64,000 bases of DNA from Paenibacillus harenae DSM 16969 (GTDB taxonomy: Bacteria; Bacillota; Bacilli; Paenibacillales; Paenibacillaceae). A program made the position numbers and the translations under genes. The DNA lies in assembly GCF_000422465.1 (NCBI RefSeq), contig NZ_AULV01000013.1, positions 186,001 through 250,000 of the forward strand, written 5' to 3'. Positions 43,159 through 48,280 of this stretch are shown piece by piece (position 1 is the stretch's first letter; every line of letters starts with the position of its first letter). The notes beneath the pieces are model-generated. The model did no database searches, was not told where the DNA came from, and saw nothing but the letters and a program-made list of their open reading frames with translations.

Positions 43159-45180
43159 TCAAGCCGGCAATGCCGAGCCGAACTGCAATTGATACATCGC
43201 GTAATACTTGCCGCGGTGCTCCATAAGCTCGTCGTGATTGCCGCGCTCCACGATCACGCCGCGGTCCAGCACAAGAATCTGGTCCGCATTCCGGATGGTC
43301 GACAAGCGATGCGCGATGACGAACGTCGTACGGCCCTTCTTCAGCACGTCGAGCGCCTCCTGAATGATCGCTTCCGTCTCCGTATCGATGCTCGCGGTCG
43401 CTTCGTCCAGGATCAGAATCGCCGGATCGTAGGCAAGCGCCCGCGCGAACGAGATGAGCTGCCGCTGACCGGCGGACAGCGTGCTGCCCTTCTCAATGAC
43501 AGGCGCGTCGATGCCGCCCGGCAATTGGCTAAACATCTCGTATGCGCCGACATCGCGAAGCGCCTGTTCGATCTTCTCCCTGCCGATCGCCGGGTTGTCG
43601 AGACTGATGTTCGAGGCGATCGTACCGGTGAACAGGAACGGATCCTGCAGCACGATGCCCATATGCTGGCGAAGCAGCTGCTTCGGGATATCGCGCACAT
43701 CCGTTCCGTCTATGATGATCCGCCCCTCGTTCGTATCATAGAAGCGGAACAGCAGGTTCAGAATCGAGCTTTTGCCCGAGCCGGTATGTCCGACGAGCGC
43801 TACAGTCTCGCCTTGACGCGCATGGAAGGAAATATGCTTCAGCACATACTCATCCTTCTTGTATGCGAACGATACATCGTCGAACCGCACGTCGCCTTTA
43901 TAGCGCTCCATCGAGCCGGACACAACGTCAATGCCTTCTTCGTCCATCAGCTTGAATACCCGCTCTGCGGATACTCTCGCCGTCTCCAGGTTGGACAGCT
44001 GGTTCACGATTCCGACGACCGGCGCGAACATCCGGTTCATATAATCGACGAACGCGTACAGCACCCCGACCGATACGGCCGTGCCCAGCGCATCACCCCA
44101 GAACATCCATATCACGACCAAGAACAGCACATTCCGTACCACGTTAACCAGGTTATGCGACGTGATCGAATTCAGGCTGAGCAGCTTATTCTGATACGTA
44201 AAGTAATGCTCATTCAGCTCCTCGAATTCCTTCGTCGTTTCTTTCTGGCGGCGAAACGCTTGAATGATCGGCATCCCTTGAATCGATTCGTTGATCATGC
44301 CGTTAATTTCGCTGAGCTTCGACCTGATAATCCGGTTATAACGGGCCGCAAACCGGCGGTACACGATAATCCAGACGATCAGAATCGGCACAAGCGGCAG
44401 CGCAATCAGCGCCAAGCGCGCATCAAGCAGGAACAACGCCCCGTATATCGCTGTCATGTAAATAATACCCGTAAAAAAGTTCGCCAGAACGGCGACATAC
44501 AGCTCGCGAATCGCCTCCGTATCGTTCGTGATCCGGGAGACGACCTGCCCCGCCGCCAAATTATCGTAGTAATTTACCGGGAGCCGCTGCGTATGCGCGA
44601 AAATGTCGGTGCGCATCTTGCGTACGATCCGGTTAGCCGACGTCTGCAGCATCAGCCGCTGGCCGTAGGTGAATGCCGCGACGAGCAGCAGAAAGCCGAA
44701 ATACATCGCTGCCAGTCTCAGCAGCGCCGGAAACTCCGGCTTATAGAAAGCGAACAGCTCCTGCTTCGTCAGCTGTGTCACCGGATACGATTCACTCTCT
44801 CCCGTCTCCTTGCCGGTGACCGTTAACGTTGTTCCGTCCACCTCGCGTTTTCCGTTCTCTATGCCCAGCTCAGCGTCCAGCCAATAGAATTGACGGCCGA
44901 CCTGGAGCACGCGTACCTCCTTGCTCTTCTCTTCCATTGCCGCGAAGTGATCCTCGCGCTTATACCATTTCTCTTTATAAAAAACCGCATAAGGCTGTTC
45001 TGCCTCGACCTCATGCCATTTCTTCTCGATGCCGAGAATGTTCTGATCGATCATTCGCTTCGCGATCAGCGGTCCGGCCAGCTCTGCGCATACGGCCAGC
45101 ACAAGCAGCAGCAGCGCGAGAATGATCGGTTTTTTATAGAGCATGGCGTATTGAAACAATCTCTTTCCCGTGTTTCCCAT
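43159..45180 (-). CDS. bmrD: Heterodimeric multidrug ABC exporter subunit, BmrD/YheH-like
   Basis: 673 residues, the length of B. subtilis YheH/BmrD. An extra extracellular domain of about 115 residues (38-152) sits between membrane helices 1 and 2, as known for BmrD. Walker A GHTGSGKSS, signature LSAGQ (altered from LSGGQ), Walker B ILILDEA with the catalytic Glu, and IAHRLST H-loop. It therefore supplies the intact Walker B of the dimer. It lies 22 bases after the partner gene, so both are expressed together. Exports drugs and other hydrophobic compounds. Confidence 0.93.
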   Translation of the reverse strand: MGNTGKRLFQYAMLYKKPIILALLLLVLAVCAELAGPLIAKRMIDQNILGIEKKWHEVEAEQPYAVFYKEKWYKREDHFAAMEEKSKEVRVLQVGRQFYWLDAELGIENGKREVDGTTLTVTGKETGESESYPVTQLTKQELFAFYKPEFPALLRLAAMYFGFLLLVAAFTYGQRLMLQTSANRIVRKMRTDIFAHTQRLPVNYYDNLAAGQVVSRITNDTEAIRELYVAVLANFFTGIIYMTAIYGALFLLDARLALIALPLVPILIVWIIVYRRFAARYNRIIRSKLSEINGMINESIQGMPIIQAFRRQKETTKEFEELNEHYFTYQNKLLSLNSITSHNLVNVVRNVLFLVVIWMFWGDALGTAVSVGVLYAFVDYMNRMFAPVVGIVNQLSNLETARVSAERVFKLMDEEGIDVVSGSMERYKGDVRFDDVSFAYKKDEYVLKHISFHARQGETVALVGHTGSGKSSILNLLFRFYDTNEGRIIIDGTDVRDIPKQLLRQHMGIVLQDPFLFTGTIASNISLDNPAIGREKIEQALRDVGAYEMFSQLPGGIDAPVIEKGSTLSAGQRQLISFARALAYDPAILILDEATASIDTETEAIIQEALDVLKKGRTTFVIAHRLSTIRNADQILVLDRGVIVERGNHDELMEHRGKYYAMYQLQFGSALPA

Positions 45181-45202: not shown

Positions 45203-46948
45203 TTACGTTTCAATAATGGCTTCAAGCTGCTGGCGGTCATACTGCTCGCGGTACCAGCCGCCTCTCTCCAGCAGCTGTTCATGCGTGCCTTCCTGCACGA
45301 TCCGGCCTTCGTCGAGGACGATAATCCAATCGGCGTGCTGTACGGCAGACAGGCGATGCGTTGTAATCAGCGTCGTTTTGCCGGCACGCTCCGTACGGAT
45401 GCCCTCGATTATTTCCGACTCGGTCTTCCCGTCTACCGCGGATAACGCATCATCCAGCAATAATATTTCCGGATCGGCAATAAGCGCCCGCGCAATGCTG
45501 ACCCGCTGCTTCTGTCCGCCGGACAGGGCAACGCCCTTCTCGCCGACCATCGTGTCCAGCCCGTCAGGCAGAAACCGGATGTCCTTCGCGAACGAAGCGC
45601 GTTCGAGCGCCCGCTGCAAATCCTCTTCTGTGCCTTCCGTCAACCCGAAAAATATATTCTCGCGAATCGTCTTCGAGAAGAGAATCGGCTGCTGCGGAAC
45701 ATAACCGATCCAGCCGAGCAGCTCCTCGATCCTCAGGCTGTTCAGCGATACGTCCGAAATGTAGACGCCGCCGCTGCCGAGCGGATACTCCCGCAACAGC
45801 TGCTTCAGCAGCGTCGTCTTGCCGCTTCCGGTCCGCCCGACTATGCCGAGCGTCTGCCCTTGGCGGAGCGTGAAGGACACACCGGCCAAGTTATCGACCT
45901 GCGACGAAGGGTACCGGAACGTGACGTTCCGGAATTCAAGCGTCGAAGGCTCCTCCACATGGACGGTTTCGCTTGCTTCCTCCACGTCCGGCTTGTAGCC
46001 GAGCGTCTCGCTGACCCGGTCGAGAGAAGCATTTCCGCGCTGCATAATGTTTATGAGCTCGCCGATCGCGAACATCGGCCAGATGAGCATCCCCAGAAAT
46101 ACGTTGAACGAAACCAATTCGCCTAATGTGATCTCGTTCCGGAATACTAAGTAACCGCCGTAGCAGAGCCCAATCAAGTAGCTCGTGCCGACGAGTATTT
46201 TCATCGTTGGTTCGAACAATGCGTCGATGCGGGCGACCGCGATATTTTTGCTGAGCACCTCGTTCGTCTTGGCGCCGAAGCGTTCCTCGCTCGCTTCCTC
46301 CTGCACGAATGCCCGGATTACCCTTACGCCGGACACCGATTCCAGCACCTGATCGTTCAGCTCGCCGAACGCATCCTGCGCGTCCGTGAACCGCTCGTGA
46401 ATTTTCTTCCCGTAATGCTTCATCGCCAGCGCCATCAATGGCAGCGGGAGCAAAGCGGCCAGCGTCAGCTTCACGCTGATCAGACCCGCCATCATGACAA
46501 GAATCGTCAGCATGAATAAAGTGGAATCGATCAGCGTCAGAATACCGAACCCGGCCGTCGTCGCGACCGCCCCAAGATCGTTCGTCGCGCGCGCCATCAG
46601 GTCGCCCGTCCGGTTGCGTTCATAGAAGGTCGGCGTCATCCGCAGAAAATGTCTTATGAGCCGCGACCGGAGCAGCTTCTCCAGTACGTATGCTCCGCCG
46701 AACAGCTTATAGAACCACACATACGTAATGATGTAACCGACGATCGTCACCGCGATCCAGCCGTACAGTACGCGGTTAAATTCCGACTGCCCGAGTAATC
46801 CCAGATGGATGCCGTCTATCGTATATCCGATCAGCCAAGGCGGTATGACGTCGAGAAAGCCCGTCAGGATAAGCAGCGTTATCGCCAGCGCATACCGCTT
46901 ACAGTTCATTTTGAAAAACCAGCTTAATTTTTTGAGTACACTAAACAT
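45203..46948 (-). CDS. bmrC: Heterodimeric multidrug ABC exporter subunit, BmrC/YheI-like
   Basis: 581 residues; six membrane helices then ATPase. Walker A GRTGSGKTT, canonical LSGGQ, but Walker B ILLLDDALSAVD has Asp where the catalytic Glu should be, the mark of the degenerate site in BmrC. With BmrD it forms one active and one dead ATP site. First structural gene of the operon; GGAAGGTG lies upstream. A leader ORF and two hairpins precede it, pointing to attenuation control. Confidence 0.93.
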   Translation of the reverse strand: MFSVLKKLSWFFKMNCKRYALAITLLILTGFLDVIPPWLIGYTIDGIHLGLLGQSEFNRVLYGWIAVTIVGYIITYVWFYKLFGGAYVLEKLLRSRLIRHFLRMTPTFYERNRTGDLMARATNDLGAVATTAGFGILTLIDSTLFMLTILVMMAGLISVKLTLAALLPLPLMALAMKHYGKKIHERFTDAQDAFGELNDQVLESVSGVRVIRAFVQEEASEERFGAKTNEVLSKNIAVARIDALFEPTMKILVGTSYLIGLCYGGYLVFRNEITLGELVSFNVFLGMLIWPMFAIGELINIMQRGNASLDRVSETLGYKPDVEEASETVHVEEPSTLEFRNVTFRYPSSQVDNLAGVSFTLRQGQTLGIVGRTGSGKTTLLKQLLREYPLGSGGVYISDVSLNSLRIEELLGWIGYVPQQPILFSKTIRENIFFGLTEGTEEDLQRALERASFAKDIRFLPDGLDTMVGEKGVALSGGQKQRVSIARALIADPEILLLDDALSAVDGKTESEIIEGIRTERAGKTTLITTHRLSAVQHADWIIVLDEGRIVQEGTHEQLLERGGWYREQYDRQQLEAIIET

Positions 46949-46997
46949 ATTTCTCTACCACACCTTCCGATATCCATCCTTGCATCAATTTTTCCAT

Positions 46998-47031
46998 AAA
47001 AAAGAAGCGCGCCGCCGTAACGACACGCTTC
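46998..47031 (-). terminator. Proximal leader terminator upstream of bmrC
   Basis: On the minus strand GAAGCG (47031-47026) pairs with CGCTTC (47009-47004) and is followed by six T. The loop carries GGCGGCG (47016-47010), which can pair with CGCCGCC at 47066-47060, offering an alternative fold. Confidence 0.7.
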
Positions 47032-47086
47032 CTTCCGCGTTTGGAGCATGACGCGCACAGGCGGCGGTCAAGCTCCAAAAGCACAG

Positions 47087-47122
47087 AAAAGGCGCACGGT
47101 TACGGTAACGTAACCATGCGCC
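47087..47122 (-). terminator. Attenuator-like hairpin after the leader ORF
   Basis: A 13-base stem GGCGCATGGTTAC / GTAACCGTGCGCC (one G-T type mismatch) followed by TTTTCTGTGCTTTT on the minus strand. It begins 24 bases past the leader stop codon. Confidence 0.7.
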
Positions 47123-47145
47123 TCTTGTACCGGGATTCCCCTGGT

Positions 47146-47235
47146 TTAAAAATCGACGCGCGGATGGATTACGTTATTCATGTTCAAACGATGATTCTTT
47201 GCTGCCGACGAAATAAATCCTTTGCCGTTTCTCAT
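47146..47235 (-). CDS. Leader peptide upstream of bmrCD (BmrB-like position)
   Basis: A 29-residue frame, sequence beginning MRNGKGFISSAAKNH and ending NNVIHPRVDF, translated from an ATG at 47235 with AGGAGG ten bases upstream, the best ribosome site in the region. It is followed by two terminator-like hairpins and then bmrC. In B. subtilis a small ORF, bmrB, in the same position controls bmrCD by ribosome-mediated transcription attenuation. Sequence similarity to BmrB is not evident to me; the call rests on position, ribosome site and hairpins. Confidence 0.7.
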   Translation of the reverse strand: MRNGKGFISSAAKNHRLNMNNVIHPRVDF

Positions 47236-47334
47236 GGAACGTAATCCTCCTCTCGATAAAATCTAATTGTCACTTTACCATCCGAAGAAAATACTGTCAA
47301 TACCCGATCAAGCAAAAAGAAAAAGTTACAACTA

Positions 47335-47360
47335 AGGACCGGAGAATATTCTCCGGTCCT
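47335..47360 (-). terminator. 26-bp palindrome after the small membrane-protein gene
   Basis: AGGACCGGAGAAT and its exact complement, with almost no loop. AT-rich tracts follow, the minus strand reaching CTTTTTCTTTTT about 15 bases on. Confidence 0.6.
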
Positions 47361-47378: not shown

Positions 47379-47552
47379 TTATTTTTGATTTCCTTTAAAC
47401 CATCGAATAGCAAATGAAAGTATAACAAAAACTATTCCTAGCACTCCCATATACATGTAGTAATCAGGACTTTCATTGTTTAAAATACGTCCTAATCCAA
47501 AGATTACAGCTAATGGGATACCGACAACGAGAAATATTTTTGATAGTTTCAC
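47379..47552 (-). CDS. 57-residue two-helix membrane protein, candidate immunity protein
   Basis: Starts with GTG at 47552, six bases after AGGAGG. Two hydrophobic segments (KIFLVVGIPLAVIFGL, residues 5-20, and YMYMGVLGIVFVILSFAI, 32-49) and a basic end RWFKGNQK. It begins 26 bases after the halocin-like precursor gene on the same strand and shares its AT-rich composition. Small two-helix proteins behind bacteriocin genes often give self-protection; this is inference from position and size. Confidence 0.65.
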   Translation of the reverse strand: MKLSKIFLVVGIPLAVIFGLGRILNNESPDYYMYMGVLGIVFVILSFAIRWFKGNQK

Positions 47553-47578: not shown

Positions 47579-48280
47579 TTAGGCGAGGGGCACGTAGGTA
47601 CACATATACATCATTGTCGCACTACAGATAAATCCGCCCCATCCTCCAGTAATTACACCCAATACAGCACACATTACTACACTACTCCATCCACATTTTT
47701 CACTTTCAGACATTGCTGCTTCTGCTTTGGGGGTTGATAAGAGATTATCAACAACAGCAGCTATGCCGCTTTTATTTTCTACAACTTTTGAACCTACGCA
47801 ACCGCAATCCTCCTTGTTGAATGCTTTTTGATCTTTTTCGAATACTTCTTTAGAACGTGTTACTTCTTTATTTTTCACTTTATTATTTACTGTTATTGTA
47901 TCTTCTGTCACTACTCCAAAGGTAGCATCTATAAGTTCATTATTATTAAAATCATAGACTACGGTTAGTGACCATCCTGTTTTATCTTGGTTTTCCTTTT
48001 TTTCTACATGTTCAAAAGCAAACACGTATACATCCTTTTCAGGAACAAGTGCCATCCCCATGAAATGCTTTTTTAATTGGCCGTAGTTGAGGTCTGAAAA
48101 ATCGTTAAACCCTTTATTTTGCGATAGGTTTTTTAATACATTATCAATTTCTTTTGCATCCTCCACCATACTCAAAGTTAATTCTTTTTCGTTCGCGAAT
48201 GAAGTAAAACCGGTATTCAGCATCAATAGTGAAACAATGAGACTTAGCGTTACCAGCACTTTCATTCTAAATTTAACCAT
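47579..48280 (-). CDS. Secreted precursor with halocin C8-like Cys-rich C-terminus, candidate bacteriocin
   Basis: 233 residues. Signal peptide MKVLVTLSLIVSLLMLNTGFTSFA. Middle part (residues 35-165) charged and beta-rich. After EDCGCVG and a spacer ending PKAEAA, the last 42 residues are hydrophobic and Gly/Cys-rich (EKCGWSSVVMCAVLGVITGG, GGFICSATMMYMCTY). This layout, a long N-terminal region and a C-terminal Cys-rich peptide with GGFIC, resembles halocin C8-type bacteriocins found in archaea and Firmicutes. Processing probably near the AEAA site. AGGAGGAAG precedes the ATG. Strongly AT-rich, unlike its surroundings. Confidence 0.62.
   Translation of the reverse strand: MVKFRMKVLVTLSLIVSLLMLNTGFTSFANEKELTLSMVEDAKEIDNVLKNLSQNKGFNDFSDLNYGQLKKHFMGMALVPEKDVYVFAFEHVEKKENQDKTGWSLTVVYDFNNNELIDATFGVVTEDTITVNNKVKNKEVTRSKEVFEKDQKAFNKEDCGCVGSKVVENKSGIAAVVDNLLSTPKAEAAMSESEKCGWSSVVMCAVLGVITGGWGGFICSATMMYMCTYVPLA

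Follow-up and report, generated by a model that had tools for sequence, protein, structure and literature searches.

The leader of the bmrC-bmrD drug exporter genes in the window, i.e. the whole 64-kb stretch of DNA that was analysed, quite probably forms a ribosome-mediated transcription attenuator in which two terminators (T1 and T2) are wired in series. Judged from its sequence, what is new lies in six segments that form a chain, every one of them being able to pair with the segment on either side; the parts themselves, the reading frame, and the complementarity and coevolution of the neighbouring pairs were established computationally. We further incline to the view that this is a proofreading attenuator: T2 would be opened only by the strand released when a stalled ribosome has opened T1, leakage past T1 would be caught at T2 and authorised read-through let pass, and the arrangement would represent a widespread and ancient way of controlling bmrCD across the class Bacilli, which acts through RNA pairing and frame alone and is indifferent to the peptide.

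On the minus strand the locus reads promoter, AGGAGG ribosome site, leader ORF, T1, middle hairpin, T2, bmrC and bmrD (Table 1), with the RNA predicted to start near 47265; the -35 and extended -10 motifs are both present in 44 of the 47 same-genus loci. The gene names bmrC and bmrD, proposed in a preliminary description of this DNA, are borne out by the PDB: the top match of the first product is B. subtilis YheI/BmrC (779 bits) and that of the second YheH/BmrD (855 bits), with a wide gap to the next other protein in either case (435 and 492 bits). The 317-nt leader folds at -131.8 kcal/mol versus -93.4 kcal/mol for 100 shuffles (z -8.6), and leader DNA was matched in 45 of 51 same-genus genomes (E <= 0.001). 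Structure as strong as this would also suit a ligand-binding riboswitch or a protein-binding leader, an explanation that we regard as very improbable given that no Rfam family reaches its gathering score at the leader (only tRNA does so elsewhere in the window), that relaxed thresholds yield only two miRNA families, far below their cut-offs, and that the pairings, together with the ORF, account for the conserved segments.

Table 1. Features of the bmrC-bmrD locus in the window
Feature	Position	Strand	Basis or pairing
Promoter TTGACA-17-TAAAGT, extended -10 (TGG)	47272..47300	minus	motif scan, 10/12 matches
Segment 1, ribosome site of the leader and the bases after it, GGAGGATTACGTT	47238..47250	minus	pairs with 2
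Leader ORF, 29 codons, MRNGKGFISSAAKNHRLNMNNVIHPRVDF	47146..47235	minus	ORF list; frame comparison
Segment 2, within the last part of the leader ORF, AACGTAATCCATCCGCGCG	47157..47175	minus	pairs with 1 or 3
Terminator T1, short interrupted U tract (UUUUC)	47087..47126	minus	consensus and folding scans, -28 kcal/mol
Segment 3, T1 5' arm	47107..47122	minus	pairs with 2 (antiterminator) or 4 (terminator)
Segment 4, T1 3' arm	47091..47105	minus	pairs with 3 or 5
Middle hairpin TTGGAGC...GCTCCAA, between T1 and T2	47041..47078	minus	leader fold
Terminator T2, hairpin and six T	47031-47004 (hairpin), 47003-46998 (six T)	minus	folding scan, -23 kcal/mol; missed by consensus scan
Segment 5, T2 5' arm and loop, GAAGCGTGTCGTTACGG	47015..47031	minus	pairs with 4 or 6
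Segment 6, T2 3' arm	47014-47004 (46998..47014 with U6 tract)	minus	pairs with 5
Possible bmrC ribosome site, GGAAGGTG	46968-46961	minus	
bmrC orthologue, one subunit (581 aa) of a heterodimeric ABC multidrug exporter	45203..46948	minus	PDB match
bmrD orthologue, 673 aa, partner subunit	43159..45180	minus	PDB match

The leader ORF and its strong ribosome site, reported earlier, are present, with AGGAGG at 47251-47246 lying 10 nt ahead of the ATG. Its start is in frame with segment 2 (the distance is a multiple of three) in all 47 same-genus loci, although the start-to-switch-segment distance takes 11 different values between 48 and 138 nt; taking the first ATG past the ribosome-site motif again puts 47 of 47 in frame. 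The leader frame is thus kept across relatives, as the preliminary description required of an attenuator. Over all sets, a leader was recognised by fixed rules, which miss odd tails and odd start codons, in 127 of the 158 loci having T1. One could conceive of two ordinary terminators preceded by a chance ORF, with no regulation at all. This is highly implausible in view of a frame kept at so many distances, of the coevolution of segment 1 with 2 and of 2 with 3 (see below), and of the attenuation shown for the B. subtilis orthologue, as described in PMC4191407.

The peptide itself seems free to change, as far as sequence comparison can tell. Among 19 close relatives the upstream leader codons differ by 0.43, 0.39 and 0.43 at codon positions 1-3, and ungapped pairwise comparison yields 1505 nonsynonymous versus 255 synonymous differences. 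The last leader codons read NVIHPRV in most close relatives and vary by only 0.04, 0.01 and 0.03 at the three codon positions; because this stretch, which is segment 2, is near-invariant at every codon position, it suggests a constraint on the RNA. The leader peptides of other families look unrelated, and a conserved peptide of the kind found in drug-specific arrest-peptide leaders was not encountered, there being no conserved sequence outside the switch segment. The leader would therefore probably report the general speed of translation, and not one drug.

Just ahead of bmrC (about -105 to -20), many loci outside the window's family contain another short ORF of 17-27 codons, likewise preceded by a ribosome site (L200, L209, L212, L214, L216, L218, L261, L263, L264, L266 and L270-L273). 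Its peptide ends with two acidic or small residues plus Gly before the stop (e.g. DPESG, LEGG, SLENG); a variant in L269 ends EGD, and the L274 ORF was read by eye. It may be another regulatory uORF.

Both hairpins of the preliminary description are present, the second with its six T before bmrC. The first hairpin with the TTTTC tail starts 19-22 nt past the leader stop, depending on the stem extent counted, and not 24 bases as had been given; T2 ends 49 nt ahead of the bmrC ATG (46948). The T1-T2 stretch is more stable than mononucleotide shuffles both in the window (z -3.6) and in the 95 of 150 loci in which it measures at least 28 nt (mean z -2.9). It had also been claimed that the loop of the T2 hairpin can pair 44 bases upstream, which is true of the window sequence (CCGCCGCC, 47067-47060). 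The motif between T1 and T2 is found in 1 of 47 same-genus loci, namely the window itself, and a 6-base part of it in 3 of 47, so this pairing was dropped as a switch element; what comparison upholds, on the pattern of B. subtilis bmrB-bmrCD, is the leader ORF, the antiterminator overlapping its end and the terminator ahead of bmrCD. The T2 hairpin can instead pair with the 3' arm of T1, 60-90 nt upstream. This genome has another ABC exporter gene, a paralogue (L096), for which the folding scan found no terminator.

Related loci were assembled in three sets. The first comprised 66 loci, reduced to 60 by leaving out six by hand: L084, L086, L087, L094 and L095, with no clear T1-T2 pair, and the paralogue L096. 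The named set was drawn from the best 80 matches listed, in which species of Paenibacillus and Cohnella rank as the nearest relatives with a name; of its 56 new loci 14 were dropped (6 without T1, 8 without T2). The diverse set, taken from loci among the matches listed and including 60 regions hand-picked to span families, contributed 90 new loci, 42 of which were dropped for lack of a pair. Altogether 150 of the 212 upstream regions examined, a total that includes the paralogue, yielded a T1 together with a T2; the rules for calling a pair are strict, and these figures therefore count detections, not absences. At least one of the pairs called, that of L204, looks mis-assigned.

In the window the duplexes 1:2 (-17.6 kcal/mol), 2:3 (-17.7 kcal/mol) and 4:5 (-15.3 kcal/mol) compete with T1 (3:4) and T2 (5:6). 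For each locus, after removal of similar sequences, we compared the energy of its own duplex with that of segments swapped between loci. Swapping preserves composition and consensus, and non-neighbour pairs serve as controls of the same ancestry; the permutation p-values treat representatives as exchangeable, ancestry being handled through these control pairs and through stricter clustering. When 67 dissimilar representatives were taken from 123 loci, the neighbour pairs occupied the first five places among all 15 pairs, with z of -9.5 (1:2), -9.1 (2:3), -15.1 (3:4), -6.6 (4:5) and -19.2 (5:6). The ten non-neighbour pairs range from +1.1 to -3.5, the largest being 4:6 (-3.5) and 1:4 (-3.3), and the control 3:6 gives -1.7. 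Under stricter clustering 4:5 retains z -3.6 (29 representatives) and -3.4 (14 representatives), the latter nearly equalled by the off-model pair 1:4 (-3.2), a signal that may arise because segment 1 resembles segment 3.

An antiterminator that overlaps the leader ORF and excludes the terminator is apparent from the coevolution of both 2:3 and 3:4. The region from segment 2 to segment 3 folds at -27.2 kcal/mol on average versus -23.3 kcal/mol for T1, and at least 8 pairs between the leader end and the T1 arm were counted, without a shuffled control, in 115 of 127 loci. In 31 of 47 same-genus loci TTTGA at the leader stop can additionally pair with TCRRAG just before T1, which lengthens the antiterminator; this pairing is absent from the window, and in L024 and similar loci a small GGG/CCC hairpin is situated inside it, between segments 2 and 3.

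The link between the two terminators rests on the pair 4:5. In the first set (60 loci, 31 representatives) its z is -5.6, compared with 0.3, -0.3 and -1.6 for the controls 3:6, 3:5 and 4:6; the diverse set (48 of 90 loci, 36 representatives, many families) gives -5.0, with 3:6 at -2.1 (p 0.02), and all loci pooled (82 representatives) give -6.8, with 3:6 at -1.3 and 4:6 at -2.7. Significance was not reached in the named Paenibacillus and Cohnella set (42 of 56 new loci), where 18 representatives yield -11.8 kcal/mol for own versus -11.4 kcal/mol for swapped duplexes (p 0.13) and 11 representatives p 0.23, nor under the strictest pooled clustering (8 representatives, p 0.24) or in the genus alone (p 0.07 with 16 representatives, p 1.0 with 2). 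This variation among subsets indicates that the signal comes mainly from divergent lineages, in which both partners have changed. At the level of single bases, a position in the T2 loop, as the hairpin is drawn, set against the T1 arm was scored in 87 loci and reads C:G in 44, T:A in 13, T:G in 8 and never C:A, with exceptions at the same site of A:G (11), T:T (7) and others (4); the next position, scored in 93 loci, reads A:T in 74, G:C in 3 and A:C in 10. These counts come from related loci and are hence dependent.

The results for 4:5 have to be weighed against a simpler explanation, namely that regulation acts on T1 alone, in line with the model published for B. subtilis, that T2 is a weak terminator or a back-up independent of T1, and that 4:5 reflects similar hairpins, e.g. 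a duplicated terminator. On the one hand, tandem terminators are a simple means of reducing leakage, T1 and T2 of the window share the motif GTTACG, 4:5 falls short of significance in the subsets named above, and 3:6 carries a weak signal in the diverse set. On the other hand, a duplicate predicts 3:6 to be as good and as coevolved as 4:5, whereas the z of 3:6 is only 0.3 to -2.1; a T2 that stays active whenever T1 is opened would cancel induction; and a base of the T2 loop tends to track its counterpart in the T1 arm. We thus consider regulation of T1 alone unlikely and prefer two terminators in series.

How the work of stopping is divided between them may be read from the U tails. Among the 47 same-genus loci the U run of T1 is at most four in 29 and at least six in 10, that of T2 is at least six in 38, and the tail of T2 is the richer in U in 32 loci and that of T1 in 5. 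Averaged over all 150 loci the tails differ little, with 6.5 (T1) versus 7.1 (T2) U of 9, a count in which a few T2 tails (e.g. L018, L020) were measured too far downstream because the scanned hairpin included part of the T run. Five loci (L014, L017, L025, L072 and L074) combine poor T1 tails (3-5 U of 9) with T2 tails of 5-8 U of 9. Since this comparison favours T2, T2 may do much of the stopping and T1 may in part be a relay. Carried to its end, this becomes a version overlapping with our preferred explanation, in which T1 is mainly a relay hairpin, T2 the main terminator, and 3:4 serves only to keep segment 4 off T2. The short runs of T1 beside the long ones of T2 in the genus, and the five loci just named, argue for it; the genus loci with a T1 run of at least six and the similar means over all loci argue against it, and we regard it as possible, if somewhat doubtful.

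For the attenuator with two terminators in series we infer termination at T1 and T2, stalling of the ribosome, the order of events and drugs as the signal as follows. Under free translation the ribosome at the stop codon would cover part of segment 2, 3:4 (T1) would form and the polymerase would stop; with no ribosome 1:2 would form, and T1 likewise. A polymerase slipping past T1 would meet T2, which would form because segment 4, still locked in T1, cannot disturb 5:6. A ribosome held on the first codons would instead cover segment 1, leaving 2 to pair with 3 once 3 is made; with T1 blocked, segment 4 would be free to pair with 5 before 6 is made, T2 would be blocked as well, and bmrC-bmrD would be transcribed through two open terminators. 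T2 thus seems to be disarmed by a T1 arm that is freed only when a stalled ribosome opens T1, and would act as a second check, one that catches unauthorised read-through and yields only to a genuine stall.

Conditional folds, for which the window RNA was folded with ribosome footprints masked and as partly made transcripts, agree with this passage from stall to read-through only for the partly made transcripts. With a ribosome on codon 3, segment 1 being covered, 2:3 forms with 15 bp as segment 3 emerges; without a ribosome 1:2 forms (13 bp), and with a ribosome at the stop codon 2:3 is absent. When 2:3 is held, 4:5 pairs (11 bp) before 6 is made, and when 3:4 is held 4:5 is absent. A stall at codon 10 leaves 1:2 and no full 2:3, at codon 15 it gives 2:3, at codon 20 six pairs of 2:3 and at codon 23 none, which in this model suggests that inhibitors acting on the first codons would induce best. 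As soon as a terminator has been transcribed in full, it is part of the lowest-energy fold at every ribosome position tried, and a complete T2 wins even with 2:3 held; the switch would consequently have to be kinetic.

A covariance model (R1) spanning segment 2 to T1 and built from 22 genus sequences matched all 51 same-genus genomes (E <= 0.01), a count that includes a match in G061 and a weak one in G065, both taken irrespective of their position relative to bmrC. In the window's own genome it yields one strong match, at bmrC, with its reverse-strand echo, and one weak match (29 bits), which follows a gene that we take, by eye, for cysteine synthase and which was put down to chance. Given the lack of any other convincing R1 match in this genome, the switch seems to be dedicated to bmrCD.

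Several of these features are familiar from B. subtilis, in which bmrCD is controlled by translation of the bmrB leader and induced by ribosome-targeting drugs, lincomycin, erythromycin and chloramphenicol being the inducers described (Reilman et al. 2014, PMC4191407). The two systems share orthologous bmrC-bmrD genes, a short leader, and a terminator, an antiterminator and an anti-antiterminator. In B. subtilis, according to the description in that paper, these elements lie within bmrB, which is 162 bp long and separated from bmrC by 119 bp; here, in contrast, a terminator inside the leader ORF was not encountered and both terminators lie past the leader stop. A further difference, with bmrB taken as described there, is that the leader ribosome site serves here as segment 1 and that T2 is linked to T1. 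Neither 'second terminator' nor 'tandem' occurs in the main text of PMC4191407, and no B. subtilis locus is among the best 80 named loci listed. We found no description of a second bmrCD terminator, or of pairing between the arms of T1 and T2, in the literature searched, most subscription papers being outside its scope. The attenuator itself is of a known kind, and it is a variant by virtue of having its terminators beyond the ORF, a ribosome site that doubles as segment 1 and above all the T1-T2 link.

The ermA leader likewise comprises six segments. ermA and ermC, the latter described as a translation attenuator (PMC5418344), resemble the switch proposed here in their alternative pairings triggered by a stalled ribosome; those pairings free a ribosome site, whereas the present attenuator would remove transcription terminators. 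For ermK of B. licheniformis, a leader ORF and a pair of adjacent Rho-independent terminators are described upstream of a drug-resistance gene (Kwak et al. 1991, cited in PMC4335068). Two adjacent intrinsic terminators also separate leader and gene here, but the gene family differs, bmrC taking the place of an erm methylase. The mef(E)/mel attenuator of streptococci is similar in that efflux genes are preceded by a leader peptide and a terminator; as for the last stem-loop, the authors concluded that it is not a second terminator (PMC4335068).

If the proofreading attenuator is real, a leader attenuator can be both tight and inducible by having a second terminator that senses the legitimate opening of the first, and bmrCD attenuation would extend from one model species to many Bacilli. 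It would also offer a compact design for chained RNA switches, and an early block of translation in general, rather than one particular drug, would be predicted to turn on the pump.

The surroundings of the locus contain a perfect 11-bp hairpin with weakly T-rich flanks (47335-47360) between a 57-aa ORF and the bmrCD promoter, which could be a terminator insulating the leader. The 57-aa ORF (47379-47552, minus strand) encodes a membrane protein, and its upstream neighbour on the same strand (47579-48280) a predicted secreted protein of 233 aa whose C-terminus contains Cys and Gly. Because the latter has a halocin C8-like domain match, sub-threshold at 17 bits against a cut-off of 24, it could be a bacteriocin with an immunity-like partner.
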